From Taiwanofungus camphoratus (taxonomy: Eukaryota > Basidiomycota > Agaricomycetes > Polyporales > Taiwanofungaceae), in assembly GCA_003999685.1 (NCBI GenBank), contig CP021221.1:3162001-3226000 (forward strand): a DNA stretch of 64,000 bases. The letters are read 5' to 3'. Below, one piece after another: positions 1 to 64,000 of this stretch. Each line of letters opens with the position of its first letter. Positions within the stretch are counted from its first letter, which is position 1. The notes beneath the pieces were generated by a model. That model was given only the letters and a program-made list of their open reading frames with translations, made no database searches and was not told the origin of the DNA. A program made the translations under genes and the position numbers.

Positions 1-175
1 TACCCAGCCGCGTCGTTTCGTATTTTCGAAATACGAACTTTCGCGAGTAATAGCCGCCGCTGAGGTACGCGAAGGTTCGCGCGCGCAACGCTACGTTGCT
101 TTCTCAGACTGTCTCATCTATTCTTACCCTTCCGTAGAATCCTGCACCGCCAGCGGCGCACCACGGTTCTCTGCG

Positions 176-201
176 CTGCAACGGAACGTTTGCCGTTGCA
201 G
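176..201. repeat. Hairpin with 9-bp perfect arms
   Basis: CTGCAACGG and CCGTTGCAG are separated by 8 nt. The arms are kept in all units; the loop has one variable base (AACGTTTG here, AAGGTTTG elsewhere). It lies just downstream of two looser inverted repeats (CGTATTTTCGAAATACG and GCAACG-CTA-CGTTGC). Confidence 0.8.
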
Positions 202-551
202 ACCTGGACGAAGTTTCCTGGCCGTCTCGTATCTGGGGACCTTCTCGATCCTGCACTCGTTCATTCGGGTCCTCGTCATCAAACTATCCCCGGGCCTGTT
301 CAAAAGCCTACCAAGGTATCCCGCTGACTGACTGCAGAATTCCGGCTCTCGGGTATTTCGTGCATGAATTCTAGCGACTAGGTGTGCGTTACGCGGACAG
401 AGGTACGTTATGATCACGGTTGCGACGTACGATATGTCCCGCTTACCGAACTGTGTTTACTTTGATCCATCCTCTATGACCCTGCACGTCTACCAGTCTG
501 AGCAGAATATGGTCAAGGCTATGCGGACAGGATTCGACTGTACGAGCGCAG

Positions 552-570
552 ACGTACCTTCCAGGTACGT
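552..570. repeat. Hairpin ACGTACCT-TCC-AGGTACGT
   Basis: Perfect 8-bp arms around a 3-nt loop. The right arm contains a potential splice donor (CAG|GTACGT), so the hairpin would mask a 5' splice site if folded in RNA. Found in every unit. Confidence 0.75.
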
Positions 571-688
571 GATCTCTCGTCTCGCGGCGGGTGTCTTGCT
601 CACTGTGCGGGGCATTCGCCCTTTGTCTTCGCAGGTACGATGTTCCTTCGTTTCAGCGGGAGGAGACATCTTCCGCTCGTTTCGCTTG

Positions 689-704
689 TAGCGAAGCTTC
701 GCTA
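689..704. repeat. 16-bp perfect palindrome
   Basis: TAGCGAAGCTTCGCTA, self-complementary over its whole length. In units 6 and 7 the centre is changed (AAGGTTC), which destroys perfect symmetry. Units 1-5 keep it. Confidence 0.75.
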
Positions 705-1059
705 GCGATTGCGCTTGGTCCGATCGAGTACGTACGTGTGATTTCCCGTCTCCCGTGCGTCCTTCCCCACCCCATTCTCCGTTGCCCTTTCCGAGGCTGA
801 CGCGCTACGGAGATGCAGCGGCCACTTTCGCCCGTCTTCCCTGCAAGCGAGGACCCGAGCGTGGACAGCTCGTCGTCACCAGGGCACCGCGCCGCGTAGC
901 CTCTAGCGGGATGACGAGAGCCGCGCAGGAACACTGGGCGAGCGAATGCGAGATGGGCGGCATTTCTCGTCTCTCGCCTCCGCGGGTATTCGTTTCGCCT
1001 GGTTGGATGGAGGATGGGGTCGGCGTACCGGGGCGGAGATGGAAGGAGGAGGATTGGGG

Positions 1060-1065
1060 TATAAA
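1060..1065 (+). promoter_or_regulatory. TATA box with pyrimidine-rich leader, unit 1
   Basis: TATAAA in a G-rich context, followed by about 90 nt of C/T-rich sequence (a typical fungal core promoter and 5' leader) and an ATG at 1182. The arrangement is kept in all seven units, which fits a functional or recently functional promoter. What it would transcribe is unclear, because no gene is recognised in block III. Confidence 0.5.
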
Positions 1066-1181
1066 GCGGTGGGTGTTCTTGCCGTTCTCTTCTTCCGTCC
1101 CCTTTCCAGTCCGTCCTGTTTACCCTCTCTCTTCTCCTCCCCCCGTCTCTTCCCCGCATCTCGATCAGGCTTACCTCAATC

Positions 1182-1241
1182 ATGCCAACACTCACCATGC
1201 TTCCATCATGGAGCACCTTCCACGCAGTTCACCGTCGATGA
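1182..1241 (+). CDS. Short first-exon-like ORF downstream of TATA box, unit 1
   Basis: ATG at 1182 (MPTLTMLPS...) follows the pyrimidine-rich leader and stops after 19 residues. A potential splice donor (GATGAG|GTAAGG) lies at the stop, so it may be a first coding exon of a lost gene. Units 2 and 4 carry a different ending (...PSRCTFPARCS) next to GACGAG|GTAGGG. I do not recognise a family; low confidence that it is translated. Confidence 0.2.
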   Translation: MPTLTMLPSWSTFHAVHRR

Positions 1242-3438: not shown

Positions 3439-4044
3439 GGTGCGCTTGGGGAGTCGGTTGCGGCTGGATAGCGGGAGCGTGAAGAGCAAGAGCGCCTGTG
3501 GCAGCGTGACGTCTGGTTGGCTTGGGGCGCGACTAGTGATGTGGGGGAACTCACCTGGGCGTGGCCGCAGTCTCTCTCGAGCCAGCGCGGGGACAAGGAT
3601 GGTTGCCGGAGAGCGGTGCCAGATGCGAGGCGTAGAATATGAGAGGTGGCGTCAGGACTGCTTGAGATGGCAGTCGCTGTCGAGATAAGCGCCCAACAGG
3701 CGCCGGGTGCGTTGGCTGAGAAGAACGACGATGCTGGAGACGAAACACCGAGAGCGCTGCGGCCACGCTCGTTCAGTGTGCATTTCCCTGCCCTACGTCT
3801 CTGTCCTCCTGAGCACTCTGCACACACGGCCAGGCTTCCACCCGCTCTAAGGCCGTGCTAGGATTCTATTCTGCGGCGGGGGAGCGTGTTTCCCGCGTGC
3901 CTATCGACAGCCGCAGGCCTGACCACGACGAGAATAGCGGCGTCTGACAGCGAATCACACTCGGATCGTCGACGAACGTGGCTGCCGTCCGCCCCGCCGA
4001 AGCCCTCCTTGCGCGTTTCTCACTGATGTGACCTGACACGAGCC
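3439..4044. promoter_or_regulatory. Head-to-head intergenic region, unit 1
   Basis: About 600 bp between the divergent start codons of the TMEM135-like fragment (3438, minus) and the phytase (4045, plus). It would be the shared promoter of both. It holds GC-rich sequence without a clear TATA box near either start. On the minus strand a donor-like GTGAG lies near 3555, so the TMEM135-like transcript may begin with a leader exon further upstream. Confidence 0.4.
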
Positions 4045-5363
4045 ATGTCCAAACGACAGAGCCAGCTCCTCCCCGACGCTTATAGCCGCTGCAGGAGCGC
4101 GAGGGGCATCAAGACTCTCGGCGCATACCCTGCTCTCAGCTGGACGAGGCGCACGCTCTGCGGCAAGATGTCGAGCCTCTTTCTCATCTGCGTGTCATTC
4201 TACATCTTTTGCGCGTACGTGACGCTGGTCGCGTCCAAGCCCGACTCGCGCTCTGGCAGGCAGCAGCCCACGACGTCGGGCGGGTTCGCTCTGCCGGAGA
4301 GCGCACACAGCTGGGCGATGTACACGCCGTACTACCCGCTGGACGACTACGTGCCTCCGCCACAGGACTGCGAGATTGTCCAGGTGAGCGTCGTGTGTGG
4401 TCTGCGTCGATCGATCGCGATCGTCCGCGGTGCAGAGTCGTGGTCCGCGGACGTATCGGGGCATTGCCCTTGCATTTCATATTGACGATCGCCGGTCATG
4501 TCACAGGTCAACATCGTACGTCATACGCTATCTCGTAGATACACCGCATCGACTGAGGCTTCCGCCAGCTGCAAAGACACGGCGCTCGGTACCCGACGAA
4601 ATCGGCCAGCAAGGCGATCAAGAAGGCGCTGAAGAAGCTGCAGGGCGCAAGGAACTTTACGGACCCCCAAATGTATTTCCTCCACAACTTCACCTACTCG
4701 CTCGGCAAAGACGACCTGGTGCCGTTCGGGGCTGCAGAGTGAGCGTGGTCCTGCTACGATCGGGCGGTGGACTGACGGAGGCCACATAGGTCGTACGACG
4801 CCGGCGAGCAGGCGTTCTGGCGGTACTCGGATCTGATGAGTGAGGACAAGCTGCCGTTCGTGCGGGCTTCGAGCAAACAGCGGGTGGTGGATTCGGCGAC
4901 GAACTGGACAGCAGGTATGTGGATGTTGTCAAGTTGATGGCCCGGCTCACGTTGTAGGAAGGATTCGCGGCGGCCAGCCACCAGCAATACGCGCCGGTCC
5001 TGTCGGTCATCCTGTCGGAAAGCGTAGGTCGGTCTCGCGCCATCTCACACACAGCCGGCACTCACGCACGCATAGGCCAACGACACCCTGGACGACGCGA
5101 ACTGCCCGAACGCCGGGTCAGCAGACGCACAGGACGCGGCGTGGCAGGCGGTGTACGCGCCGAACATCACCGCGGCGCTCAACGCGTACGCGCCGGGGGC
5201 GGACCTGGACGACGACGACACGGCGAGCCTGATCAGCCTGTGCCCGTTCGAGACGGTGGCAAACATGGGACGGAGCGGGTTCTGCGGGCTGTTCGAGCAG
5301 CTGGGGGCGTTCGCTGGGTACGAGTACGCGGGCGATGGAGGTGGAGGTGGAGTGGGGTGTTGA
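4045..5363 (+). CDS. Histidine-acid phytase, 3'-truncated, unit 1
   Basis: A basidiomycete-type phytase, which releases phosphate from phytate. Exons are 4045-4383, 4507-4515, 4569-4738, 4790-4914, 4962-5023 and 5076-5363, giving 330 residues. Residues ~42-64 ([21 protein letters not shown]) form one membrane or signal-anchor helix. Exon 2 is a 9-nt microexon (VNI). The junction of exons 2 and 3 gives [12 protein letters not shown] with the catalytic RHGxRxP motif. Then follow [55 protein letters not shown] and [19 protein letters not shown]. After that the reading runs into a glycine tail and a stop. Basidiomycete phytases continue for about 160 residues, including the HD proton-donor motif, so this copy is unlikely to be active. 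Confidence 0.85.
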
Positions 5364-5429
5364 GTGGGCGTGGGATGGTTACGTTTCGAAGAGAGGATTG
5401 GTGTGCATGGAGGTTAGGGTCAAAAACAG

Positions 5430-5485: not shown

Positions 5486-5507
5486 GGACACTCCATTTTT
5501 ATCATTT

Positions 5508-5537: not shown

Positions 5538-5554
5538 TAGAGCTAAATAAAGAT

Positions 5555-5610: not shown

Positions 5611-5640
5611 ACCCGGGGCATAGATGACGTGGCCCCCCCG

Positions 5641-12491: not shown

Positions 12492-13076
12492 GGTGCGCTT
12501 GGGGAGTCGGTTGCGGCTGGATAGCGGGAGCGTGAAGAGCAAGAGCGCCTGTGGCAGCGTGACGTCTGGTTGGCTCGGAGCGCGACTAGTGATGTGGGGG
12601 AACTCACCTGGGCGTGGCTGCAGCCTCTCTCGAGCCAGCGTGGGGACAAGGATGGTTGCCGGAGAGCGGTGCCAGATGCGAGGCGTGCAATATGAGAGGT
12701 GGCGTCAGTGCTGCTTGAGATGGCAGTCGCTGTCGAGATAAGCGCCCAGCAGGCGCCGGGTGCGTTGGCTGAGAGGAACGACGATGCTGGAGACGAAACA
12801 CCGAGAGCGCTGCGGCCACGCTCGTTCAGTGTGCATTTCCCTGCCCTACGTCTCTGTCCTCCTGAGCACTCTGCACACACGGCCAGGCTTCCACCCGCTC
12901 CAAGGCCGTCTGCGGCGGGGGAGCGTGTTTCCCGCGTGCCTATCGACAGCCGCAGGCCTGACCACGACGAGAATAGCGGCGTCTGACAGCGAATCACACG
13001 TCGACGAACGTGGCTGCCGTCCGCCCCGCCGAAGCCCTCCTTGCGCGTTTCTCACTGATGTGACCTGACACGAGCC
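12492..13076. promoter_or_regulatory. Head-to-head intergenic region, unit 2
   Basis: Divergent intergenic segment. Relative to unit 1 it lacks short runs near 12,905 (GCTAGGATTCTATT) and 12,998 (CTCGGAT). Confidence 0.35.
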
Positions 13077-14392
13077 ATGTCCAAACGACAGAGCCAGCTC
13101 CTCCCCGACGCTTATAGCCGCTGCAGGAGCGCGAGGGGCATCAAGACTCTCGGTGCGTACCCTGCTCTGATCTGGACGAGGCGCACGCTCTGCGGCAAGA
13201 TGTCGAGCCTCTTTCTCATCTGCGTGTCGTTCTACGTCTTTTGCGCGTACGTGACGCTGGTCGCGTCCAAGCGCGACTCGCGCTCTGGCAGGCAGCAGCC
13301 CACGACGTCGGGCGGGTTCGCTCTGCCGGAGAGCGCACACAGCTGGGCGATGTACACGCCGTACTATCCGCTGGACGACTACGTGCCTCCGCCACAGCAC
13401 TGCGAGATTGTCCAGGTGAGCGTCGTGTGCGGTCTGCGTCGATCGATCGCGATCGTCCGCGGTGCAGAGTCGTGGTCCGCGGACGTATCGGGGCATTCCC
13501 CCTTGCATTTCATATTGACGATCGCCGGTCATGTCACAGGTCAACATCGTACGTCATACGCTATCTCGTAGATACACCGCATCGACTGAGGCTTCCGCCA
13601 GCTGCAAAGACACGGCGCTCGGTACCCGACGAAATCGGCCAGCAAGGCGATCAAGAAGGCACTGAAGAAGCTGCAGGGCGCAAAGAAGTTTACGGACCCC
13701 CAGATGTATTTCCTCCACAACTTCACCTACTCGCTCGGCAAAGACGACCTGGTGCCGTTCGGGGCTACAGAGTGAGCGTGGTCCTGCTACGATGGGGCGG
13801 TGGACTGACGGAGGCCACATAGGTCGTATGAGGCCGGCGAGCAGGCGTTCTGGCGGTACGCGGATCTGATCAGCAAAGAGAAGCTGCCGTTCGTGCGGGC
13901 TTCGAGCAAACAGCGGGTGGTGGATTCGGCGACGAACTGGACAGCAGGTATGTTGACGTCGTCAAGTTGATGGCCCGGCTCACGTCGTAGGAAGGATTTG
14001 CGGCGGCCAGTCACAAGCAATACGCGCCGGTCCTGTCGGTCATCCTGTCGGAAAGCGTAGGTCGGTCTCGCGCCATCTCACAGCCGGCACTCACGCACGC
14101 ATAGGCCAACGACACCCTGGACGACGCGAACTGCCCGAACGCCGGGTCAGCGGACGCACAGGACGCGGCGTGGCAGGCGGTGTACGCGCCGAACATCACC
14201 GCGGCGCTCAACGCGTACGCGCCGGGGGCGGACCTGGACGACGACGACACGGGGAGCCTGATGAGCCTGTGCCCGTTCGAGACGGTGGCCAAGATGGGAC
14301 GGAGCGGGTTCTGCGGGCTGTTCGAGCAGCTGGGGGCGTTCGCTGGGTACGAGTACGCGGGCGATGGAGGTGGAGGTGGAGTGGGGTGTTGA
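13077..14392 (+). CDS. Histidine-acid phytase, 3'-truncated, unit 2
   Basis: Exons 13077-13415, 13540-13548, 13602-13771, 13823-13947, 13995-14056 and 14105-14392. All splice sites and exon lengths equal those of unit 1, with an open frame of 330 codons. The protein differs from unit 1 by several replacements, for example RYADLISKEKLPF where unit 1 has [13 protein letters not shown], and [29 protein letters not shown] is intact. The C-terminal third of the enzyme is missing at the same point. Confidence 0.85.
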
Positions 14393-21562: not shown

Positions 21563-22165
21563 GGCGCGCTTGGGGAGTCGGTTGCGGCTGGGCAGGGGGA
21601 GCGCGAAGAGCAAGAGCGCCTGTGGCAGCGTGACGTCTGGTTGGCTTGGGGCGCGACTAGTGATGTGGGGGAACTCACCTGGGCGTGGCTGCAGTCCCTC
21701 TCGAGTCGACGCGGGGACAAGGATGGTTGCCGGAGACGGTGCCAGACACGAGGCGTTCAATATGAGAGGTGGCGTCAGTGCTGCTTGAGATGGCAGTCGC
21801 TGTCGAGATAAGCGACCAACAGGCGCCGGGTGCGTTGGCTGAGAAAAACGACGATGCTGGAGACGAAACACCGAGAGCGCTGCGGCCACGCTCGTTCAGT
21901 GTGAATTTCCCCGTCTTGCGTCTCTGTTCTCCTGAGCATTCTGCACACACGGCCAGGCTTCCACCCGCTCCAAGGCCGTGCTAGGATTCTATTCTGCGGC
22001 GGGAGCGTGTTTCCCGCGTGCCTATCGACAGCCGCAGGCCTGACCACGACGAGAATAGCGGCGTCTGACAGCGAATCACACTCGGATCGTCGACGAACGT
22101 GCCTGCCGTCCGCCCCGCCGAAGCCCTCCTTGCGCGTTTCTCACTGATGTGACCTGGCACGAGCC
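21563..22165. promoter_or_regulatory. Head-to-head intergenic region, unit 3
   Basis: Divergent intergenic segment that keeps both short runs (GCTAGGATTCTATT and CTCGGAT) seen in unit 1. Confidence 0.35.
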
Positions 22166-42344: not shown

Positions 42345-42354
42345 TTTCCACGGC

Positions 42355-42880
42355 ATACGGGCACACCATACTCGATATACCACGGTGGGTAGTACGGCAC
42401 GAGCAGCCTGTCAATTTGGATGACACCGCCTGTGCCCCCACCAGTCGTAGACCGTCCCCACGAGAGCACGCTGACCACAGTGCCTTCCTCACTTTCGAGC
42501 TCCCGGAAGATAATATTGCCGTAGATCGACTCTGAGGTATGTAGCATCGAGTACGACAGGGAGTCGTTGATGGCTAGGGGTTGGTTGTTGTACAGTACAT
42601 CCTCCACACCCGCGAGTGGATTCTGTGCTGCTGGGGTCGGCGTCAGAGGTGTTGGTTGATGATTGCACGTAAACGCTCTTCGTCGGCATATAGCGCCGTC
42701 AAATTAACCTGTTTGAATGCACCGTCCATTGGGCACAGAAGTGTCCACCCACCGCCACCCAGGCCCATGTCCACCCACTGTGAACCCTCGGGCGGCACAG
42801 TATCATTCAGCACCCAATCAAGCCCAGCCTTCATCGTCATCGTCGCCATGGTTGTACCCTTCGCGGCTCTGATGAGCTTG
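42355..42880 (-). pseudogene. Fasciclin (FAS1) domain protein fragment, unit 5
   Basis: Minus strand. One frame reads KLIRAAKGTT.., MKAGLDWVLNDTVPP, WTLLCPMDGAFKQVNL, YADEERLRAIINQHL; after a one-base frame change it continues TPTPAAQNPLAGVEDVLYNN, SLSYSMLHTSESIYGNIIF, VLSWGRSTTGGGTGGVIQID and LLVPYYPPWYIEYG. This is the second half of a basidiomycete extracellular fasciclin-like adhesion protein. The N-terminal secretion signal and first FAS1 part are absent. It sits between ends (CCACGGCA and GAATCGTGCG) that are only ~17 nt apart in units 1-4. Confidence 0.8.
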
Positions 42881-42947
42881 CTGACAGTGAGTTGCGCGGA
42901 GCATGGGAGAGAATCGTGCGTGCTGCCCCTCCAGTTTGAAACGCCAT

Positions 42948-43064
42948 ACGCCGTTGATAACCCAGTCTTAGGTTAGCGTTCTCCATGACGCAGCGGACGT
43001 CCAGGAACATAAAGTCCTGGCTCGCACCGTCATTAGCCCACTCGACGCGAAGATCGTGATCGAA
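42948..43064 (-). pseudogene. Unidentified exon-like fragment, unit 5
   Basis: FDHDLRVEWANDGASQ then DFMFLDVRCVMENANLRLGY; more replacements than unit 4 but the frame is open. Confidence 0.3.
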
Positions 43065-43285
43065 ATGACTTACCCCCCTCCTTCAAAATTCCTCCTCCTG
43101 ACCTTGCGCATGTATGGCAAGCACGCCGCACACCTAGATGTACGTTAATAAAGGTAAACCAATGACATATTTATTTCTAATGCTTACCTCTCGTGGGCAA
43201 CCGAGCGAGATCAACCTGCATGACGTCAATGTGCGCGCCCTATCAACCACGATCATCGCCAACGCAGATCAACGTCGTGAACGAC

Positions 43286-43774
43286 CAGAGCTTGAAGCTC
43301 GCAACGACCGTTGCGCGCGCGCTCGCAGATGCGCTTCCCGGGGACCGAGATGCCCCTTGGATCTTCAAGACGGCCTCCTGCCCCCTGCTCGCGGGACGTC
43401 GATATGTATACATATTGCGATCCCGGCCTTGCGTTTGGCCCATATCGTGGTCAGATGATAGTGTACCTTCAGCAACTTCATAGACAACAGAGGTCGAAGC
43501 TCGCAACGACCATTGCGCTCGCAGGTGCACTTCCCGGGGACCGAGATGCCCTTTGAATCTTCTAGACGGCCTTCTGCCCCCTGCTCGCGGGACGTCGATA
43601 TGTATATATATTGCCATCCCGGCCTCGCTTTTCGCCCATATCATGGTCAGATGCTAGTGTACGTTCAGCACCTTTATAGACAACGAGAAGCTCGAAACTC
43701 ACAACCGTCGTCCTGCCTGCAGATGCCCTTTCGATCTTCAACATAGCCTCCTGCCCCTGCTCGCGGGACGTCGA
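43286..43774. repeat. ~190-200-bp subrepeat array, unit 5 (3 copies)
   Basis: AAGCTCG marks at 43295, 43497 and 43688 (202 and 191 apart). Confidence 0.85.
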
Positions 43775-43924
43775 TATCTCGATTCTGCGTTGCCTCGATT
43801 AGAACGGTTGGACAGGACGATCGAGTTCCCGTTGCCAAATGAGACGGCCCGCGCCTGCATCCTTGAAATACACGCGCGAAAGATGTCTGTCTCCCTCAAT
43901 GTTAACTACGAGGAGCTTGCTCGA
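43775..43924 (+). pseudogene. RPT5 fragment, unit 5
   Basis: Same protein reading as unit 1 ([15 protein letters not shown]), unlike the neighbouring unit 4. Confidence 0.75.
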
Positions 43925-44093
43925 TGTCCTTGTCGATGTGCGCATTGAGAATGAACGTCTAGACGAAACACATACAAAACGAATATAGACGTTGCGACAG
44001 TGGCCTCGCTTTCGGCCCACATTGTGATGGTTCCCCCTCTCCGCAAGAATACTCCGTTCGAGTCCAATCCAGGCCACGAGAGATTGAGAGCGC

Positions 44094-44336
44094 ATGCCTT
44101 TGCCAGGTTTGCGTGCAAACACGGTTGACCCTGATCTTGACCCCTACCTCCTACCCTCCTCTGCCTCCGCGGTGTGCACTGCGCTCGCAGTCGCGGCGCT
44201 GCGGCGGAACCTCATAGCGCACGCGGCCGTGGACGTAGAGATTGTCATTAGGGGATCACGCGCAAAGATGGCAGAGCAGCTGGAGCAGATACTGGCTCTG
44301 CGTGCTGCGAACATGACCGTGCGCAAGCTGCTGTGA
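44094..44336 (+). CDS. Hypothetical 80-aa ORF, unit 5
   Basis: One replacement from unit 1 (ALRRNL for ALWRNL). Confidence 0.25.
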   Translation: MPLPGLRANTVDPDLDPYLLPSSASAVCTALAVAALRRNLIAHAAVDVEIVIRGSRAKMAEQLEQILALRAANMTVRKLL

Positions 44337-44880
44337 AGAGATGTCGGCCGTGGGGGCGGGATGGACAGTGCGAGAAGCACGAGTGGTTGATGCACGCTGG
44401 TCTGGTCTGTTCGTCGCTCTCGCTTTTCGCAGCGAAATGTCTTTTCAAGGCCCCATAAGTACTCCCAGCAGTGTGCCTCTACGTTTTCGATGACCCCTGC
44501 TCTAAATCACCGTTAGCACACTTTCCGCAGTGAGAGATCAAAACCACTCACCCTCCCAGTACGTGGTTCAACATAGCCTTTTGCCCCTGCTCGCGGGACG
44601 TCGATATGTATAGACATTGCAATAATGACCTTACTTTCGGTCCGTGTCGTGTTCTTCTATAGCCACAGACTATAGCATTTCCGACTGGCATTACGAAGGC
44701 ATAGCAGAGACGTGACGACGTCGGACTGCGACACCCTCTTATACCTTTATAATTATGCCGTTGCGCAATGGTTGCTACGAGTGACTTGACCGAACATTCC
44801 ATCATATGTTGCATAACGTACATAATGTATAGCCATTGTAAACTGTTTTTACGTCTGATCAAATCATTCATATATGAAGC
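44337..44880. other. Blocks XI-XII, unit 5: no gene recognised
   Basis: Third GTAAGTACT-family module (ATAAGT at about 44,455) and a degenerate subrepeat piece near 44,592. Confidence 0.5.
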
Positions 44881-45105
44881 GTGAACATTTCCGCCACCGG
44901 TTCTCGTGTGAATTTGGTTACTCTGGCGGTTTCGGCGGCGTCACCGTGTGACCGAGTCCATGATACTACCGACCCGACCGTTATCTTATCTGCAAGCAGT
45001 TCCGTCTCGAAACATGAGATGGAGCTGCAGACAATACTTATGTCTGAGAAAGAGTGTAAATGGCTGTCTGAGAGTGTGCAGAGTGTCGGCCCACAACCAA
45101 ACTGA
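44881..45105 (+). CDS. Hypothetical 74-aa ORF, unit 5
   Basis: Same protein as unit 1. Confidence 0.25.
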   Translation: MNISATGSRVNLVTLAVSAASPCDRVHDTTDPTVILSASSSVSKHEMELQTILMSEKECKWLSESVQSVGPQPN

Positions 45106-45842
45106 CATCATGTTTAAGAAGGTAGTTCGTAGCAATTGCTTGTGAGCACAGGAGGTCGATTGGCCGACCTTTGATTGAGCTTTCTCGCTGCGCAAAGCTC
45201 AATCCTCGGGTCTCAAATTTCTGTATACCAATTGCAATGTAGATGAAACTGTCTATTAAATTACATGTGCCCCCATTTGCAGTGTGCTACAATATACTGA
45301 CTGACTTGAAGCCGTGTGCATGCCTTCGACCTAATTTCGAGCACAAAACAACAGAATGCTGATGCAGCACTCGAAATTGGATCGACGCTCGTTCGTTCGC
45401 ACTCTCTGGGACAATCTAATCAGCAACGATCCCAGATAGGTCACATCTGGGAGTCTCTCGTCCGTTTCGCCGTGATTCCGAGTCCACAACCATATCCTAG
45501 GGTGAGGATTTTTTTATTACAGATATGCGAGTCTGAGGACAATATCTACGCAATCGAGGTAAGTGCGCATACCTTTCCGCTGCATGAAACTGTGCTAATC
45601 TGTTCAATTTTGTCTTTTGCCTTTTTCCGCGGAGCTGCGCTCCTGTCCTTACAATACTAGGTATTACGGCCTCCCCGTTCCGTCATGGCTACAGCAGGGA
45701 GCTCCCTATCCATTAACGCAAATTGAGATGAAATTGTGTACCCACTGACTGTCTGTATTCCCGACACATTATTCCTTCACAAGCCCGTCATCTGCATGTA
45801 CTCGTCATTACTGCCATCAAGATTCCATGTTGCAGGTAAATT
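45106..45842. other. End of unit 5: unassigned
   Basis: Holds a 114-codon frame (45316-45660) that reads through the exon-like ICESEDN piece, and the start of the boundary ORF. No family recognised. Confidence 0.5.
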
Positions 45843-46212
45843 TACCCAGCCGCGTCGTTTCGTATTTTCGAAATACGAACTTTCGCGAGTAATAGCCGCC
45901 GCTGAGGTACGCGAAGGTTCGCGCGCGCAACGCTACGTTGCTTTCTCAGAGTGTCTCATCTATTCTTACCCTTCCGTAGAATCCTGCACCGCCAGCGGCA
46001 CACCACGGTTCTCTGCGCTGCAACGGAAGGTTTGCCGTTGCAGACCTGGACGAAGTTTCCTGGCCGTCTCGTATCTGGGGACCTTCTCGATCCTGCACTC
46101 GTTCATTCGGGTCCTCGTCATCAAACTATCCCTGGGCCTGTTCAAAAGCCTACCAAGGTATCCCGCTGACTGCAGAATTCCGGCTCCCGAGTATTTCGTG
46201 CATAAATTCTAG
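45736..46212 (+). CDS. Hypothetical 158-aa ORF across the unit 5/6 boundary
   Basis: Extended version of the boundary ORF (MYPLTVCIPDTLFLHKP... to ...EYFVHKF). Low confidence of coding. Confidence 0.2.
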   Translation: MYPLTVCIPDTLFLHKPVICMYSSLLPSRFHVAGKFTQPRRFVFSKYELSRVIAAAEVREGSRAQRYVAFSECLIYSYPSVESCTASGTPRFSALQRKVCRCRPGRSFLAVSYLGTFSILHSFIRVLVIKLSLGLFKSLPRYPADCRIPAPEYFVHKF

Positions 46213-46896
46213 CGGCTAGGTGCGCGTTACGCGAACAGAGGTACGTTACGATCACGGTTGCGACGTACGATATGTCCTGCTTACCGAACTGTTTTACTTT
46301 GATCCATCCTCTACAACCCTACACATCTACCGGTCTGAGCAGAATATGGTCAAGGCTATGCGGACGGGATTCGACTGTACGAGCGCAGACGTACCTTCCA
46401 GGTACGTGATCTCTCGTCTCGCGGCGGTTCTCTTGCTCACTGTGGTGGGCATTCGCCGTTAGTCTTCGCAGGTACGATGTTCCTCCGTTTCAGCGGGAGG
46501 AGACATCTTCCGCTCGTTTCGCTTGTAGCGAAGGTTCGCTAGCGATTGCGCTTGGTCCGATCGAGTACGTACGTGTGATTTCCCGTCTCCCGTGCGTCCT
46601 TCCCCACCCCATTCTCCGTTGCCCTTTCCGAGGCTGACGCGCTACGGAGATGCAGCGGCCACTTCCGCCCGTCTTCCCTGCAAGCGAGGACCCGAGCGTG
46701 GACAGCTCGTCGTCACCAGGGCACCGCGCCGCGTAGCCTCTAGCGGGATGACGAGAGCCGCGCAGGGACGCCGGGCGAGCGAATGCGAGATGGGCGGCGT
46801 TTCTCGTCTCTCGCCTCCGCGGGTATTCGTTTCGCCTGGTTGGATGGAGGATGGGGTCGGCGTACCGGGGCGGAGATGGAAGGAGGAGGATTGGGG

Positions 46897-46902
46897 TATA
46901 AA
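46897..46902 (+). promoter_or_regulatory. TATA box, unit 6
   Basis: TATAAA; ATG at 47019, unit-1 type first exon. Confidence 0.5.
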
Positions 46903-47081
46903 GCGGTGAGTGTTCTTGCCGTTCTCTTCTTCCGTCCCCTTTCCAGTCCGTCCTGTTTACCCTCCATTTTCTCCTCCCCCCGTCTCTTCCCCGCATCTCG
47001 ATCAGGCTTACCTCAATCATGCCAACACTCACCATGCTTCCATCATGGAGCACCTTCCACGCAGTTCACCGTCGATGAGGT

Positions 47082-48263
47082 AAGGAAGATACCTGTATTT
47101 CCGTCAATCTATGTACTGACATGTCTGCTACCTACCTGCACCATGCTCCCCATTCGCGATGCGGCCGTGTCGCTTGACTGCGCTCACCACTCGTGAGCGT
47201 CCGAACGCGTTCATCGCGCGATCCTCACGGTAGCGAGGATGCCAGTGCCGTCGACTGCCCGCCTGACCACTCGCCCGACCGCTCACTCGATCGCTCGCCC
47301 TTCGCCTCGCTCTCGATCACTTTCTCCCTCCGCTTCACGCATCACGGAGCGTCAAGACCACAGGTACGTACCGGTTCGTCTGAGCCGGCCCGCCGCCGAA
47401 CTCACCCTGCCGTTCCTCACATTCCAGACGTCGCGCTCGCCGCGTGAGCGGCTCCGTTGGCAGGGGGGCGGGCACAAAAGCACGGAGGAAGGCGGTGGTG
47501 GCAGTATCATAGAAAGAAGTAGATTACCGTAGCGTAGCGTAGTTACCCTCTCGGTCGTGCACAGGTACGGCGGGTGGTGCGTTGCGGCACTCGCGCCGTG
47601 TTCGTTCTCGGCCAGCCAGCCGAGACCCAGTGGCGAGATTTGAGGGGGAAAGACGGGCATAGTGGATCCCGTCCGTCCCCCATTCCTCGAGCGCGCCGAG
47701 GCGCTCGCAGCTCGTACGGGGCGCAGCGTCGGTAGCTATGCGGCTTCGCCGAGGGAAACCGCACCAAGTCCGGGTCTACGCCGTTCGCAAGTGGGCAGGA
47801 TAGTTGCTGCTGGCAACTGGCTTACTGCACGTGAAACGACGAGCAGGGACCAGCCGTGAGCAGCGTCGGTACCGCCAGGACGAGTGCCTCGAGAACGGCA
47901 GATGGCGGACGTCAGACGCTGGGAGCAGGGTTCAGCGAGCCGGGAGCAAGGCTGGGATGACGTACCTAGCGGGACATCCAACCCACGGCTGCGTCACGCC
48001 GGGCGTTGACATCAAACGCCGTTCGTCATCGGCCTGCCAGAGAAGGCACGGGCGCTGACTGGCATTGCGCGCGGATAGTCTGCGCGCGACGCTGGAATTC
48101 GTCAGCGCGTGAGGCCGTGCGCCGTTTGCGAACGTGCTGCGTTTGAGACGGTTGCCAGTCGTGAGCCGTGGAAGGCTGGATGGGATGGGCCGTTGGCGGT
48201 ATCGCGGCGCACGGATCGGGGACAGTGGGCAGAGGGAAGGGGATACTGTCAGCACCGTCTCAC
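47082..48263. other. Block III, unit 6: no gene recognised
   Basis: As in unit 1; intron-like stretch about 47,365-47,428 ending CACATTCCAG. Confidence 0.5.
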
Positions 48264-49290
48264 CCTCAACGCCTGCTGCTCGATCGCGGTCCGCGGCCCG
48301 CGCTTCTCGAAGAGATTCGCAAGCGCGCCCGCGAGCACGGAGTATGATCGCCGCGTTCGCTTGCACAGCCACGCCTGGTGCGTCTGCGCGGCCGTCGAGA
48401 GGCACGGGCCGCGGCCTCCTCGGCGTCGTCAGGGAAGGGAGAGTCCGGGGAAGGGGACGCGGAATGGAGAACGGTGTGGCGGAGGAGCGAGCGCGAGCGG
48501 GTGGAGCTGGCGCGCCGCGGCCTGGGCTCGGGGGGAGTGCGTTGAGGACGAATTTGTAGAGGACGACGAACGAGCCCGGGGTCAGGGGCACGAGGGTGGT
48601 GGTGAGATGACGAGGCAACATGGATGATAAACGGGGGCGCACCGAGCACGGCTGCGAGTCTGAACGACTCGGGCCCGAACGCTGCATGCTGTATGAGCGC
48701 AAGGCACGTCTCGGTCAGTACAGCGGACGGAGAGACGTCGTGAGAGAGGTGGATCGGAACGATCCACCGGTCGCTCACTCTGCCTGCCGGGAGAGCGAAA
48801 TGACGTAGCCCGTCTTAGCTGACGGGCTCTCTCGGCAGATCCGCGCTGTGTGCTATCGCTGTGTGCACACATGGGGACACTCACCTCGGCAGGTCGTCGA
48901 TTCTGGTCACGCGCAGGATCAGATTGACACCCGAGGGGATAGCGAACGCCAAGCCACCCGCCCCTGGCGTTTGACAGCGCAAAGGCGTCAAGATTCGCGA
49001 CGCTGGAAAAGGCTGGGGGACGTACCGAGGCCGCCCCTTCCGCCATGCTCGAGACACTCCCACTGGTCCTGCAGCTCTTCGACGGGCCGCTCGCCGCTGT
49101 CGCGCCAGACGATCTTGCGGGCCTCGCGGAGGCGCTCCCCTTAGTTTGCGAGTGCGACGGAATTGTCGAACGAGGCCATGGCGCGCTTGGGGGCGAATTC
49201 GAGGAAGGAGGGCGTGCGCGACAGGCCGGGTGCCTGGTCCGAGTCCGGGGAAAGCGGAGAAAGAGGCGTGGTGGCGTTGCGGGGAGCCAT
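48264..49290 (-). pseudogene. TMEM135/Tim17-like fragment, unit 6
   Basis: Exon 1 open to MASFDNSVALAN and then a stop (TAA). The next part reads GERPVEELQDQWECLEHGGRGGLG with an extra codon. Exon 3 has the 14-nt loss (TCLALIQHAAFGPESF). RRSYSALAGALANLFEKRG is open, unlike units 3-5. Confidence 0.6.
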
Positions 49291-49871
49291 GGCGCGCTTG
49301 GGGAGTCGGTTGCGGCTGGACAGGGGGAGCGCGAAGAGCAAGAGCGCCTGCAGCTGCGTGACGTCTGGTTGGCTTGGAGCGCGACTAGTGATGTGGGGGA
49401 ACTCACCTGGGCGTGGCTGCAGCCTCTCTCGAGCCAGCGCGGGGACAAGGATGGTTGCCGGAGACGGAGCCAGACACGAGGCGTACAATATGAGAGGTGG
49501 CGTCAGTGTTGCTGAGATTGTCGAGATAAGCGACCAACAAGCGCTGGGTGCGTTGGCTGAGAGGAACGACGATGCTGGAGACGAAACACCGAGAACGCTG
49601 CGGTCGCGCTCGTTCAGTGTGAATTTCCCCGTCTTGCGACTCTGTCCTCCTGAGCACTCTGCACACACGGCAAGGCTTCCACCCGCTCTAAGGCCGTCTG
49701 CGGCGGGGGAGCGTGTTTCCCGCGTGCCTATCGACAGCTGCAGGCCTGACCACGACGAGAATAGCGGCGTCTGACAGCGAATCACACTCGGATCGTCGAC
49801 GAACGTGCCTGCCGTCCGCCCCGCCGAAGCCCTCCTTGCGCGTTTCTCACTGATGTGACCTGACACGAGCC
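49291..49871. promoter_or_regulatory. Head-to-head intergenic region, unit 6
   Basis: Shortened near 49,510 (CTGAGATTGTCGAG), otherwise like unit 3. Confidence 0.35.
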
Positions 49872-51218
49872 ATGTCGAAGCAACAGAGCCAGCTCCTCCC
49901 CGACGCTTATAGCCGCTGCAGGAGCGCGAGGGGCATCAAGACTCTCGGTGCGTACCCTGCTCTGATCTGGACGAGGCGCACGCTCTGCGGCAAGATGTCG
50001 AGCCTCTTTCTCATCTGCGTGTCGTTCTACGTCTTTTGCGCGTACGTGACGCTGGTCGCGTCCAAGCCCGACTCGCGCTCTGGCAGGCAGCAGCCCACGA
50101 CGTCGGGCGGGTTCGCTCTGCCGGAGAGCGCACACAGCTGGGCGATGTACACGCCGTACTATCCGCTGGACGACTACGTGCCTCCGCCACAGGACTGCGA
50201 GATTGTCCAGGTGAGCGTCGTGTGCGGTCTGCGTCGATCGATCGCGATCGTCCGCGGTGCAGAGTCGTGGTCCGCGGACGTATCGGGGCATTCCCCCTTG
50301 CATTTCATATTGACGATCGCCGGTCATGTCACAGGTCAACATCGTACGTCATACGCTATCTCGTAGATACATCGCATCGACTGAGGCTTCCGCCAGCTGC
50401 AAAGACACGGCGCCCGGTACCCGACGAAATCGGCCAGCAAGGCGATCAAGAAGGCGCTGAAGAAGCTGCAGGGCGCAAAGAAGTTTACGGACCCCCAGAT
50501 GTATTTCCTCCACAACTTCACCTACTCGCTGGGCAAGGACGACCTGGTGCCGTTCGGAGCTGCAGAGTGAGCGTGGTCCTGCTACGATCGGGCGGTGGAC
50601 TGACAGAGGCCACATAGGTCGTATGAGGCCGGCGAGCAGGCGTTCTGGCGGTACTCGGATCTGATGAGCGAGGACAAGCTGCCGTTCGTGCGGGCTTCGA
50701 GCAAACAGCGGGTGGTGGATTCGGCGACGAACTGGACAGCAGGTATGTTGACGTCGTCAAGTTGATGGCCCGACTCACGTCGTAGGAAGGATTCGCGGTG
50801 GCCAGCCACCAGCAATACGCGCCGGTCCTGTCGGTCATCCTGTCGGAAAGCGTAGGTCGGTCTCGCGCCATCTCACACACAGCCGGCACTCACGCACGCA
50901 TAGGCCAACGACACCCTGGACGACGCGAACTGCCCGAACGCCGGGTCAGCGGACGCACAGGACGCGGCGTGGCAGGCGGTGTACGCGCCGAACATCACCG
51001 CGGCGCTCAACGCGTACGCACCGGGGGCGGACCTGGACGACGACGACACGGGGAGCCTGATGAGCCTGTGCCCGTTCGAGACGGTGGCCAAGATGGGACG
51101 GGAGCGGGTTCTGCGGGCTGTTCGAGCAGCTGGGGGCGTTCGCTGGGTACGAGTACGCGGGCGATGGAGGTGGAGGTGGAGTGGGGTGTTGAGGGGGCGT
51201 GTGATGCTTACGTTTTGA
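49872..51218 (+). CDS. Histidine-acid phytase, truncated with altered tail, unit 6
   Basis: Exons at the unit 5 positions plus 9600: 49872-50210, 50335-50343, 50397-50566, 50618-50742, 50790-50851 and 50904-51218. The N-terminus is MSKQQSQ, and exon 1 has ASKPDSRS where unit 5 has ASKRDSRS. Beyond that the gene is identical to unit 5, including the extra G in exon 6. Confidence 0.8.
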
Positions 51219-51944
51219 AGAGAGGATTGGTGTGCATGGAGGTTAGGGTCAAAAACAGGTAAGTTCACGACGGTTTTTGGCTATGTCCACTGACATGGCT
51301 TCCCCTCCCCGCAGGGACACTCCGTTTTTATCATTTCCAGGGGGGCACAGAAGATGTCCCCCCTGGTAGAGCTAAATAAAGATGCAAGTCCTCGACGGTT
51401 TCAGACTCCGTGGACTTGCATGACTTCCCCTCCCCGCTGACCCGGGGCATAGATGACGTGGCCCCCCCGGTAAGTCCAGATCCATTCTGGCCTTTATTCA
51501 CTTACGCGGCTTCCCCTTCCCGCAGGAACACTCCAATTCACGCCGCAAAAGATCTGCCCTGGCCGCTGTCCCCATCTCAAAGGGATGAGCATCGTCGAAA
51601 CCCTAATCTAGGGTTTATCGCTCTCAGCGGAACGCCTTCTGGAGGTCCCGTAAGTACTCCCAGCGACGACCGAGCACTGCTCTAACTCACCGTTAGCGCG
51701 CTTTCCACAACAATCGAGATCGGAATGACTCACCCTCCCGGTAGTTGATGCACCGCAGGCCTTGTCTTCAACGGTTGCGACGCAGGACAGGCCCAGATTG
51801 GTACGTGCTTCCCTCTTCGTCCGCTTGTTTCTTGCGGTGGAACGTCGTTTGAAGGTTTTGTAAGTACTGCGCGCGCACAATGATCCAGATCAAAATCACT
51901 CACCAGGTGGTTTCAGATAGCTGATATCCCACCACAGGCCTTGT
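51219..51944 (+). other. Block VII, unit 6: intron-like modules
   Basis: Identical to unit 5 at a lag of 9600; first 56-nt copy 51259-51314. Confidence 0.55.
51598..51616. repeat. Telomere-like palindrome, unit 6
   Basis: Same sequence as in unit 1. Confidence 0.7.
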
Positions 51945-51954
51945 TTTCCACGGC

Positions 51955-52480
51955 ATACGGGCACACCATACTCGATATACCACGGTGGGTAGTACGGCAC
52001 GAGCAGCCTGTCAATTTGGATGACACCGCCTGTGCCCCCACCAGTCGTAGACCGTCCCCACGAGAGCACGCTGACCACAGTGCCTTCCTCACTTTCGAGC
52101 TCCCGGAAGATAATATTGCCGTAGATCGACTCTGAGGTATGTAGCATCGAGTACGACAGGGAGTCGTTGATGGCTAGGGGTTGGTTGTTGTACAGTACAT
52201 CCTCCACACCCGCGAGTGGATTCTGTGCTGCTGGGGTCGGCGTCAGAGGTGTTGGTTGATGATTGCACGTAAACGCTCTTCGTCGGCATATAGCGCCGTC
52301 AAATTAACCTGTTTGAATGCACCGTCCATTGGGCACAGAAGTGTCCACCCACCGCCACCCAGGCCCATGTCCACCCACTGTGAACCCTCGGGCGGCACAG
52401 TATCATTCAGCACCCAATCAAGCCCAGCCTTCATCGTCATCGTCGCCATGGTTGTACCCTTCGCGGCTCTGATGAGCTTG
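51955..52480 (-). pseudogene. Fasciclin (FAS1) fragment, unit 6
   Basis: Identical to unit 5, including the frame change between INQHL and TPTPAAQ. Confidence 0.8.
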
Positions 52481-52547
52481 CTGACAGTGAGTTGCGCGGA
52501 GCATGGGAGAGAATCGTGCGTGCTGCCCCTCCAGTTTGAAACGCCAT

Positions 52548-52664
52548 ACGCCGTTGATAACCCAGTCTTAGGTTAGCGTTCTCCATGACGCAGCGGACGT
52601 CCAGGAACATAAAGTCCTGGCTCGCACCGTCATTAGCCCACTCGACGCGAAGATCGTGATCGAA
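52548..52664 (-). pseudogene. Unidentified exon-like fragment, unit 6
   Basis: Identical to unit 5. Confidence 0.3.
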
Positions 52665-58890: not shown

Positions 58891-59471
58891 GGCGCGCTTG
58901 GGGAGTCGGTTGCGGCTGGACAGGGGGAGCGCGAAGAGCAAGAGCGCCTGCAGCTGCGTGACGTCTGGTTGGCTTGGAGCGCGACTAGTGATGTGGGGGA
59001 ACTCACCTGGGCGTGGCTGCAGCCTCTCTCGAGCCAGCGCGGGGACAAGGATGGTTGCCGGAGACGGAGCCAGACACGAGGCGTACAATATGAGAGGTGG
59101 CGTCAGTGTTGCTGAGATTGTCGAGATAAGCGACCAACAAGCGCTGGGTGCGTTGGCTGAGAGGAACGACGATGCTGGAGACGAAACACCGAGAACGCTG
59201 CGGTCGCGCTCGTTCAGTGTGAATTTCCCCGTCTTGCGACTCTGTCCTCCTGAGCACTCTGCACACACGGCAAGGCTTCCACCCGCTCTAAGGCCGTCTG
59301 CGGCGGGGGAGCGTGTTTCCCGCGTGCCTATCGACAGCTGCAGGCCTGACCACGACGAGAATAGCGGCGTCTGACAGCGAATCACACTCGGATCGTCGAC
59401 GAACGTGCCTGCCGTCCGCCCCGCCGAAGCCCTCCTTGCGCGTTTCTCACTGATGTGACCTGACACGAGCC
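58891..59471. promoter_or_regulatory. Head-to-head intergenic region, unit 7
   Basis: Identical to unit 6. Confidence 0.35.
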
Positions 59472-60818
59472 ATGTCGAAGCAACAGAGCCAGCTCCTCCC
59501 CGACGCTTATAGCCGCTGCAGGAGCGCGAGGGGCATCAAGACTCTCGGTGCGTACCCTGCTCTGATCTGGACGAGGCGCACGCTCTGCGGCAAGATGTCG
59601 AGCCTCTTTCTCATCTGCGTGTCGTTCTACGTCTTTTGCGCGTACGTGACGCTGGTCGCGTCCAAGCCCGACTCGCGCTCTGGCAGGCAGCAGCCCACGA
59701 CGTCGGGCGGGTTCGCTCTGCCGGAGAGCGCACACAGCTGGGCGATGTACACGCCGTACTATCCGCTGGACGACTACGTGCCTCCGCCACAGGACTGCGA
59801 GATTGTCCAGGTGAGCGTCGTGTGCGGTCTGCGTCGATCGATCGCGATCGTCCGCGGTGCAGAGTCGTGGTCCGCGGACGTATCGGGGCATTCCCCCTTG
59901 CATTTCATATTGACGATCGCCGGTCATGTCACAGGTCAACATCGTACGTCATACGCTATCTCGTAGATACATCGCATCGACTGAGGCTTCCGCCAGCTGC
60001 AAAGACACGGCGCCCGGTACCCGACGAAATCGGCCAGCAAGGCGATCAAGAAGGCGCTGAAGAAGCTGCAGGGCGCAAAGAAGTTTACGGACCCCCAGAT
60101 GTATTTCCTCCACAACTTCACCTACTCGCTGGGCAAGGACGACCTGGTGCCGTTCGGAGCTGCAGAGTGAGCGTGGTCCTGCTACGATCGGGCGGTGGAC
60201 TGACAGAGGCCACATAGGTCGTATGAGGCCGGCGAGCAGGCGTTCTGGCGGTACTCGGATCTGATGAGCGAGGACAAGCTGCCGTTCGTGCGGGCTTCGA
60301 GCAAACAGCGGGTGGTGGATTCGGCGACGAACTGGACAGCAGGTATGTTGACGTCGTCAAGTTGATGGCCCGACTCACGTCGTAGGAAGGATTCGCGGTG
60401 GCCAGCCACCAGCAATACGCGCCGGTCCTGTCGGTCATCCTGTCGGAAAGCGTAGGTCGGTCTCGCGCCATCTCACACACAGCCGGCACTCACGCACGCA
60501 TAGGCCAACGACACCCTGGACGACGCGAACTGCCCGAACGCCGGGTCAGCGGACGCACAGGACGCGGCGTGGCAGGCGGTGTACGCGCCGAACATCACCG
60601 CGGCGCTCAACGCGTACGCACCGGGGGCGGACCTGGACGACGACGACACGGGGAGCCTGATGAGCCTGTGCCCGTTCGAGACGGTGGCCAAGATGGGACG
60701 GGAGCGGGTTCTGCGGGCTGTTCGAGCAGCTGGGGGCGTTCGCTGGGTACGAGTACGCGGGCGATGGAGGTGGAGGTGGAGTGGGGTGTTGAGGGGGCGT
60801 GTGATGCTTACGTTTTGA
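59472..60818 (+). CDS. Histidine-acid phytase, truncated with altered tail, unit 7
   Basis: Exons 59472-59810, 59935-59943, 59997-60166, 60218-60342, 60390-60451 and 60504-60818. Identical to unit 6. Confidence 0.8.
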
Positions 60819-61543: not shown

Positions 61544-61553
61544 TTTCCACGGC

Positions 61554-62079
61554 ATACGGGCACACCATACTCGATATACCACGGTGGGTAGTACGGCACG
61601 AGCAGCCTGTCAATTTGGATGACACCGCCTGTGCCCCCACCAGTCGTAGACCGTCCCCACGAGAGCACGCTGACCACAGTGCCTTCCTCACTTTCGAGCT
61701 CCCGGAAGATAATATTGCCGTAGATCGACTCTGAGGTATGTAGCATCGAGTACGACAGGGAGTCGTTGATGGCTAGGGGTTGGTTGTTGTACAGTACATC
61801 CTCCACACCCGCGAGTGGATTCTGTGCTGCTGGGGTCGGCGTCAGAGGTGTTGGTTGATGATTGCACGTAAACGCTCTTCGTCGGCATATAGCGCCGTCA
61901 AATTAACCTGTTTGAATGCACCGTCCATTGGGCACAGAAGTGTCCACCCACCGCCACCCAGGCCCATGTCCACCCACTGTGAACCCTCGGGCGGCACAGT
62001 ATCATTCAGCACCCAATCAAGCCCAGCCTTCATCGTCATCGTCGCCATGGTTGTACCCTTCGCGGCTCTGATGAGCTTG
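61554..62079 (-). pseudogene. Fasciclin (FAS1) fragment, unit 7
   Basis: Identical to unit 5. Confidence 0.8.
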
Positions 62080-62146
62080 CTGACAGTGAGTTGCGCGGAG
62101 CATGGGAGAGAATCGTGCGTGCTGCCCCTCCAGTTTGAAACGCCAT

Positions 62147-62263
62147 ACGCCGTTGATAACCCAGTCTTAGGTTAGCGTTCTCCATGACGCAGCGGACGTC
62201 CAGGAACATAAAGTCCTGGCTCGCACCGTCATTAGCCCACTCGACGCGAAGATCGTGATCGAA
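62147..62263 (-). pseudogene. Unidentified exon-like fragment, unit 7
   Basis: Identical to unit 5. Confidence 0.3.
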
Positions 62264-62484
62264 ATGACTTACCCCCCTCCTTCAAAATTCCTCCTCCTGA
62301 CCTTGCGCATGTATGGCAAGCACGCCGCACACCTAGATGTACGTTAATAAAGGTAAACCAATGACATATTTATTTCTAATGCTTACCTCTCGTGGGCAAC
62401 CGAGCGAGATCAACCTGCATGACGTCAATGTGCGCGCCCTATCAACCACGATCATCGCCAACGCAGATCAACGTCGTGAACGAC

Positions 62485-62973
62485 CAGAGCTTGAAGCTCG
62501 CAACGACCGTTGCGCGCGCGCTCGCAGATGCGCTTCCCGGGGACCGAGATGCCCCTTGGATCTTCAAGACGGCCTCCTGCCCCCTGCTCGCGGGACGTCG
62601 ATATGTATACATATTGCGATCCCGGCCTTGCGTTTGGCCCATATCGTGGTCAGATGATAGTGTACCTTCAGCAACTTCATAGACAACAGAGGTCGAAGCT
62701 CGCAACGACCATTGCGCTCGCAGGTGCACTTCCCGGGGACCGAGATGCCCTTTGAATCTTCTAGACGGCCTTCTGCCCCCTGCTCGCGGGACGTCGATAT
62801 GTATATATATTGCCATCCCGGCCTCGCTTTTCGCCCATATCATGGTCAGATGCTAGTGTACGTTCAGCACCTTTATAGACAACGAGAAGCTCGAAACTCA
62901 CAACCGTCGTCCTGCCTGCAGATGCCCTTTCGATCTTCAACATAGCCTCCTGCCCCTGCTCGCGGGACGTCGA
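62485..62973. repeat. ~190-200-bp subrepeat array, unit 7 (3 copies)
   Basis: Identical to units 5 and 6. Confidence 0.85.
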
Positions 62974-63123
62974 TATCTCGATTCTGCGTTGCCTCGATTA
63001 GAACGGTTGGACAGGACGATCGAGTTCCCGTTGCCAAATGAGACGGCCCGCGCCTGCATCCTTGAAATACACGCGCGAAAGATGTCTGTCTCCCTCAATG
63101 TTAACTACGAGGAGCTTGCTCGA
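62974..63123 (+). pseudogene. RPT5 fragment, unit 7
   Basis: Identical to unit 5. Confidence 0.75.
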
Positions 63124-63292
63124 TGTCCTTGTCGATGTGCGCATTGAGAATGAACGTCTAGACGAAACACATACAAAACGAATATAGACGTTGCGACAGT
63201 GGCCTCGCTTTCGGCCCACATTGTGATGGTTCCCCCTCTCCGCAAGAATACTCCGTTCGAGTCCAATCCAGGCCACGAGAGATTGAGAGCGC

Positions 63293-63535
63293 ATGCCTTT
63301 GCCAGGTTTGCGTGCAAACACGGTTGACCCTGATCTTGACCCCTACCTCCTACCCTCCTCTGCCTCCGCGGTGTGCACTGCGCTCGCAGTCGCGGCGCTG
63401 CGGCGGAACCTCATAGCGCACGCGGCCGTGGACGTAGAGATTGTCATTAGGGGATCACGCGCAAAGATGGCAGAGCAGCTGGAGCAGATACTGGCTCTGC
63501 GTGCTGCGAACATGACCGTGCGCAAGCTGCTGTGA
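63293..63535 (+). CDS. Hypothetical 80-aa ORF, unit 7
   Basis: Identical to unit 5. Confidence 0.25.
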   Translation: MPLPGLRANTVDPDLDPYLLPSSASAVCTALAVAALRRNLIAHAAVDVEIVIRGSRAKMAEQLEQILALRAANMTVRKLL

Positions 63536-64000
63536 AGAGATGTCGGCCGTGGGGGCGGGATGGACAGTGCGAGAAGCACGAGTGGTTGATGCACGCTGGT
63601 CTGGTCTGTTCGTCGCTCTCGCTTTTCGCAGCGAAATGTCTTTTCAAGGCCCCATAAGTACTCCCAGCAGTGTGCCTCTACGTTTTCGATGACCCCTGCT
63701 CTAAATCACCGTTAGCACACTTTCCGCAGTGAGAGATCAAAACCACTCACCCTCCCAGTACGTGGTTCAACATAGCCTTTTGCCCCTGCTCGCGGGACGT
63801 CGATATGTATAGACATTGCAATAATGACCTTACTTTCGGTCCGTGTCGTGTTCTTCTATAGCCACAGACTATAGCATTTCCGACTGGCATTACGAAGGCA
63901 TAGCAGAGACGTGACGACGTCGGACTGCGACACCCTCTTATACCTTTATAATTATGCCGTTGCGCAATGGTTGCTACGAGTGACTTGACCGAACATTCCA
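63536..64000. other. Blocks XI-XII, unit 7, cut by the window end
   Basis: Same as 44337-44802. The third GTAAGTACT-family module (ATAAGT at about 63,655) is present; the 74-aa ORF lies beyond the window. Confidence 0.5.

Follow-up and report, generated by a model that had tools for sequence, protein, structure and literature searches.

The window, by which we mean the whole 64,000-nucleotide stretch of DNA analysed here (C2:3162001-3226000, from a genome of 33.19 Mb in 15 contigs, with C2 spanning 3,401,759 bp), lies within a tandem array whose unit is not a random chimera. We found that each unit consists of a common element of about 8 kb, which we denote E, and about 1.4 kb comprising the promoter and 5' part of a phytase gene. 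If the promoter and 5' part of a host gene are denoted G5', and the remainder of that gene G3', then the layout of the loci is G5'-[E-G5']n-G3'. This geometry is observed; the mechanism it suggests is one in which an insertion duplicated the gene fronts and spared the gene, and we infer that this account replaces the reading of the array as a satellite of random gene fragments.

A reading made from the sequence alone had described seven head-to-tail units of 8.8-9.6 kb, and this description held. Repeat and junction analysis showed that tandem units fill the window (1..64000, plus strand), with seven junctions between gene and E at 5335, 14364, 23453, 32285, 41564, 51164 and 60764. The corresponding units measure 9029, 9089, 8832, 9278, 9600, 9600 and 9597 bp (8832-9600 bp overall), the last extending beyond the window; kilobase units in tandem make the C2 array a macrosatellite. 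Read from its gene/E junction, a 9,600-bp unit contains about 8.2 kb of E followed by about 1.38 kb of G5', and a representative E runs from the junction to its 3' end motif at 41564..49787 (plus strand). The phytase G5' copies, delimited by their junctions and all on the plus strand, lie at 3960..5334 (ATG 4168, ending at the E junction as judged by junction alignment), 13000..14363 (ATG 13200), 22082..23452 (ATG 22289), 30922..32284 (a variant copy), 40188..41563 (ATG 40395), 49788..51163 (ATG 49995) and 59388..60763 (ATG 59595). The last three share a one-base frameshift, which in the 40188..41563 copy is close to the end.

When one unit was matched to C2, the main block of the array spanned C2:3126249-3289951 (about 164 kb), with remnants reaching back to 3090945. 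There are 18 E starts within 235 kb of C2 around the window, one of which heads a short unit of 4780 bp. In an alignment of 15 full units, the right-hand eight are approximately 100% identical, while the remaining seven, which are older, show 95-97% identity both among themselves and with the right-hand class. A long tandem array with nearly identical right-hand units might be taken for a centromeric or heterochromatic satellite, or for an assembly artefact. We regard both as highly improbable, because the arrays are interstitial on four contigs, the older units differ by 3-5% and carry distinct indels, and the assembly looks near complete from the telomere repeats found at most contig starts (all starts and the C2 end were read). 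TTAGG-type repeats open 13 of the 14 long contigs, and on C4 they lie inside the first 120 bases; C15 (151 kb) has an AT-rich start without such repeats. Nor is this a subtelomeric family, as had been suggested: about 112 kb separate the main block from the C2 terminus, and the related loci on C5, C12 and C1 lie 0.53-0.63 Mb inside the closer end of their contigs. Beginning about 12 kb from the array's right edge are long ORFs that, by eye, resemble ordinary genes.

The identity of the gene part was recognised correctly from the sequence alone, as the joined exon pieces match Pfam His_Phos_2 (E-value 4e-21). The accompanying claim that no gene is complete is true inside the window, but a complete phytase gene stands at the right edge of the array (C2:3288787-3290523). 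Near 3289951 the last unit leads not into E but into the other half of the phytase. The downstream ORF at 3290017-3290520 also matches His_Phos_2 (5.6e-24), and the edge gene has its ATG at 3288787, the RHGARYP motif and, later, the SHDNE motif, the last two of which we take to be phytase catalytic motifs. Because the edge gene is continuous with the last unit, the units carry copies of the front of the phytase gene. The downstream gene copy is intact, and the host thus keeps a complete gene at the array edge. Among the explanations offered earlier, an amplified capture product therefore comes nearest, except that the phytase part is the duplicated front of the edge gene and not a stray capture. 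Elsewhere in the genome, the closest phytase-like sequences, on C7 and C1, share 47% and 44% identity respectively.

Within E, short insertions belonging to the C2 lineage comprise RPT5 and fasciclin (FAS1) pieces and a piece of a gene on C6. The RPT5 piece is indeed present in all seven window units, with a 157-bp exon piece at 43771..43927 and others starting at 7013, 16064, 24951, 34146, 53371 and 62970 (all plus strand), and it occurs at 17 places across the C2 region. Its source is C7:1404186-1404343 (90% identical), and the closest solved structure to the source ORF is 26S subunit 6A/RPT5 (E-value 2.5e-101). FAS1 had been reported in some units, and we found it in three of the seven, at 51950..52510 (minus strand) and otherwise in the window only at 42350-42910 and 61549-62109; the source, C1:2080843-2081451, is 85% identical and matches Pfam Fasciclin. 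Ten whole copies of this 561-bp piece, and one copy split by a transposon, are present in the C2 region. All are 99.8-100% identical, including those in two older units that otherwise differ by 3-5%, and near-identity even in diverged units indicates exchange between units and recent spread. The C6-gene piece (215 bp; 44167..44381, no strand assigned) had been overlooked. It is found in all seven window units and at 17 places in the C2 region, with its source at C6:1949744-1949958 (83%). No Pfam or PDB match was obtained for the source gene, which adjoins a MINDY-deubiquitinase gene; we rejected the piece itself as MINDY, since the MINDY domain sits in the neighbouring ORF. A retrocopy origin of the FAS1 and C6 pieces was likewise set aside: the sources are 45-57 bp longer, but the intron borders are not clean, and we do not claim intron loss. 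The TMEM135-like piece was not upheld. It has no Pfam match, its reading frame is broken by stops or shifts in the majority of the 15 units, and a genome search with a 62-aa composite query gave matches in the arrays of C2 and C12 and in one C2 remnant, and nowhere else.

The tandem array is one of four loci that we found to contain the common element E, which is composite and in which no coding sequence was recognised. Searching the genome with E revealed three more, on C5, C12 and C1. The C5 locus has units of about 8.88 kb on the minus strand with 10 E starts, and the C12 locus has two copies of a 9,863-bp unit with 2 E starts. The C1 locus is degenerate, and a second E copy there is without the E 5' end. 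Between loci, E is mostly 64-77% identical, with islands at 80-85%; no near-identical donor of E was found in the genome, the E of other loci being in that 64-77% range. One island is the E 5' end itself (51164..51374, plus strand, with further copies starting at 5335, 14364, 23453, 32285, 41564 and 60764), which is 81-83% identical in the C5, C12 and C1 arrays. The other, island 2, at 46488..46817 (plus strand, seven window copies), is non-coding, contains palindromes and is 85% identical to C5. The E 3' part is common to C2 and C12, and different in C5 and C1.

At each locus the E 5' end follows a truncated host gene, and the gene is a different one each time. On C5 it is an RVSF-motif gene and on C12 a zinc-finger-like gene, both named and oriented by eye, with no Pfam domain in the parts of these two genes that were scanned. 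On C1 it is a PacC-like C2H2 gene (Pfam zf-C2H2), with an enolase piece (Enolase_C) between the gene and E. Across all four loci, the position in E of the gene/E junction agrees to within a few tens of bp, and E is always oriented like the gene. Random template switching does not predict a common E 5' end, a constant orientation and the invariable involvement of a gene front at four loci, and these observations argue against it.

The arrangement of the gene around E is equally consistent. At the downstream edge, the gene runs on into its remaining part at all three loci read (C2, C5 and C12), the completeness of the C5 and C12 genes being judged from this continuity alone. At the other edge, G5' lies ahead of the first E at C12:653423-655495 (99%) and at C5:2238438-2240838 (94%). 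A 140-bp read of the C12 left edge shows unrelated DNA giving way to G5' in a sharp switch, at precisely the point that marks the end of E in the units; on C5 the left-edge match is older, diverged and less sharp, and its exact boundary is uncertain. On C1, a second stretch of PacC 5' DNA lies downstream (C1:3751339-3751901, 98% over 563 bp, placed by position only); the left gene copy was read over 885 bp. At the C2 left edge a LINE and a 23.4-kb transposon disrupt the array, and the upstream G5' is not cleanly visible there. G5' copies and E starts number 11 and 10 on C5 (excluding two extra small G5' pieces near its edges, one of them inverted), 3 and 2 on C12, 2 and 1 on C1, and 19 and 18 on C2, where one truncated copy is counted along with the edge gene. 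The duplication spans 2.05 kb at C12 (9,863 minus 7,815) and about 2.4 kb at C5. A host segment thus stands on both sides of the insert, as in a cycle of templated insertion, at C12 and C5, and at C1 for PacC by position. Had E simply lain upstream of the phytase gene, and E and the 5' part of the gene been duplicated and amplified together, the window and the C2 right edge, taken alone, would look as they do. We nevertheless consider plain tandem duplication quite unlikely, since on C12 and C5 a G5' stands ahead of the first E and follows DNA unlike E, and since four genes with an identical E breakpoint would be needed. Plain duplication of a gene-adjacent E does not yield G5'-[E-G5']n-G3'; this layout would be produced by a cycle of templated insertion, or by homologous integration of a circle, with unequal exchange afterwards.

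We therefore favour, as the probable explanation, that the four genes were seeded by one recurrent insertion, through a templated-insertion cycle or a circle, followed by amplification into arrays of E and G5'. In such a cycle, a fork or broken end inside the gene body would switch to E as template and copy it (at C1, an enolase-gene piece would be copied as well), and a switch back upstream of the gene would then produce G5'-E-G5'-G3', as a germline counterpart of the cycle of templated insertion. The C1 locus, with the enolase piece and E in series, resembles what a two-step cycle could leave. Alternatively, a circle of E and G5' could integrate by homology, with an identical product. Unequal exchange and gene conversion between direct G5' repeats would subsequently build and homogenise the arrays; unequal exchange between G5' copies could account for the arrays themselves, for the near-identical right block and for the spread of FAS1.

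A further explanation is that E is a genuine transposable element, of a type so far undescribed, which has a fixed 5' end and makes a kilobase-scale target duplication over promoter and gene start. This would fit the E 5' end, constant within tens of bp, and the sense orientation at four of four loci, neither of which follows from the templated-insertion account. It would also fit the C5-like units that C1 carries, in which divergence is much the same for E and for the adjoining 5' part of the C5 gene (73-76% identity in the main blocks), as though the two had moved jointly; joint copying of E and a captured gene front is evident from these units. We consider a transposable element unlikely, however, because the 10 long ORFs of one C2 unit contain no Pfam family, and so no recognised transposase, RT or Rep of an autonomous element, because TIR, LTR and Helitron ends are absent from the C12 E, and because only four loci were found. 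To our knowledge, 2-kb target duplications are not made by any transposase. A related proposal, which we think unlikely, is that E represents an undescribed class of promoter-taking repeat, which would integrate in sense inside a gene, produce a kilobase duplication, leave the host gene in place, grow in tandem and carry a gene front onward, as in the C5-type unit at C1.

Read-through capture by a rolling-circle (Helitron-like) element producing concatemers has a very slim chance of being correct. A fixed 5' end, a variable downstream end and tandem copies are what end-bypass capture would give (PMC5148889). Against it, TC...CTRR ends are lacking (the C12 E reads GATGGAAGG...TTTGGCTGGTG), and Helitrons make no target duplication (PMC4289320), whereas duplications of 2.05 kb (C12) and about 2.4 kb (C5) flank E.

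The phytase pieces have retained coding-like features. Across the exon pieces of eight distinct units, 38 of 672 sites are variable, distributed 7/6/25 over the codon positions. With mutations drawn from the spectrum of the array itself (20,000 draws), 13.4 changes would be expected at position 3, where 25 are seen (p 1e-4); the 18 non-synonymous changes compare with 25.8 expected (p 0.006). Variable sites make up 5.7-6.0% of the gene part versus 11.9% of E. The four phytase exon pieces tested are stop-free and keep their frame length in 15/15 units, and 9/15 have a one-base frameshift just past these pieces. The likeliest source of this constraint is renewal from the selected, intact edge gene; translation of the pieces is a less likely possibility. 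There is no RIP-like loss of CpG, with observed/expected values of 1.13-1.16 per unit versus 1.01 in one 20-kb flank, although sites within CpG are roughly twice as variable as the remaining C and G sites.

The promoter and 5' exons of each unit read into E, and chimeric transcripts would be expected on this basis. The motif GTAAGT occurs 4, 5 and 4 times at the E start in C2, C5 and C1, versus 0.17-0.18 in shuffles, and once at that of C12 (with three antisense). A protein from the E 5' island was discarded as a candidate, as the post-junction frames differ between loci by eye. In island 2, which is conserved and palindromic, no shared reading frame was seen, and the covariation term for a conserved RNA structure was unfavourable (+2.39, 5 sequences). 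ARAGORN found no tRNA in the window, and Rfam found no known RNA in 33000-64000 at the gathering threshold; below it there was one match, in one unit (E-value 0.64).

We suggest that the unit may be read as the fossil of one insertion event, with the intact parent gene marking the array edge, and that other "chimeric" macrosatellites may be open to this reading. If germline templated insertion with a preferred template, or a mobile E, is responsible, then it would constitute a novel way for gene starts to be duplicated, for genes to fuse and for copy number to change. If E integrates as a promoter-taker, it would acquire a promoter while the working host gene is retained. Our literature search found no paper pairing a macrosatellite with a basidiomycete and no report of the arrangement of E and gene fronts, which is not proof of absence.

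Several known systems share parts of this arrangement. Human cancer genomes contain cycles of templated insertions that re-replicate a host segment (PMC7025897). Our loci resemble these in having the host segment twice with foreign segments between, two in the case of C1 (enolase piece and E), and differ in being fixed in a fungal genome, in involving one element with a common end at all four genes, and in later forming 9-kb arrays. Gene pieces joined to a repeat recall Helitron gene capture (PMC4289320, PMC5148889), for which PMC5148889 reports tandem copies and circles; in our case the ends of E and the target duplication do not fit, and Pfam domains are absent from the unit ORFs scanned. 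As in the fungal hAT transduplication of histone H3, a repeat amplifies a piece of a host gene many-fold; that case (PMC6710886) is transposon-borne, intronless and RIP-decayed, whereas the C2 array is tandem, intron-colinear and attached to its parent gene. Finally, the kilobase tandem units, partly homogenised in the C2 array, resemble the macrosatellites D4Z4, DXZ4 and RNU2 (PMC3018141, PMC3081327, PMC4132748), from which our array differs in that its unit combines E with the front of an adjacent gene and belongs to a family seeded at four genes.

The phytase pieces of the array units carry a one-base frameshift, an extra G, in three of the seven copies in the window. These are the last three copies, with the additional base at window positions 41478, 51078 and 60678. 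Across the array, the same frameshift is present in 9/15 full units, while it is absent from the six older full units and from the complete phytase gene at the right edge of the array.

The element E, the ~8-kb part of the unit that is shared between loci, contains a conserved non-coding island (window 46488-46817, with six further copies). Conservation of this island spans the four loci that carry E, and palindromes such as TTCGCTTGTAGCGAA are found within it. The first ~1.4 kb of E contains degenerate short repeats (e.g. window 51164-52560), and here we found several sense GTAAGT motifs in the copies on C2, C5 and C1, but no more than one on C12.

Outside the window, an array unit is interrupted by a 23.4-kb insertion (C2:3102789-3126248), which splits the unit's FAS1 piece, a fragment of a fasciclin gene. 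The insertion has inverted ends (TAGTGTTGCCGCGGCT...), is associated with an 8-bp target repeat, GACCACAG, and encloses pieces of genes for fatty-acid-synthase alpha, a BRR2-type helicase and FKS1 glucan synthase. When two parts of the insertion were used as queries, long copies with 99-100% identity were found on C3, C4 and C11, along with a shortened copy on C5. A Pfam scan of the presumed transposase ORF returned no match. The insertion is probably a hAT-like transposon of giant size that carries gene fragments as cargo; the hAT assignment was made by eye and from the 8-bp repeat. An old array unit also hosts a LINE (C2:3093877-3099207) with a poly-T end and a target repeat, whose ORF of 1710 aa encodes endonuclease, RT and RNase H domains (Pfam).

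At the contig starts, we observed a TTAGG-like telomere repeat of 5 bp, which to our knowledge is unusual in fungi.
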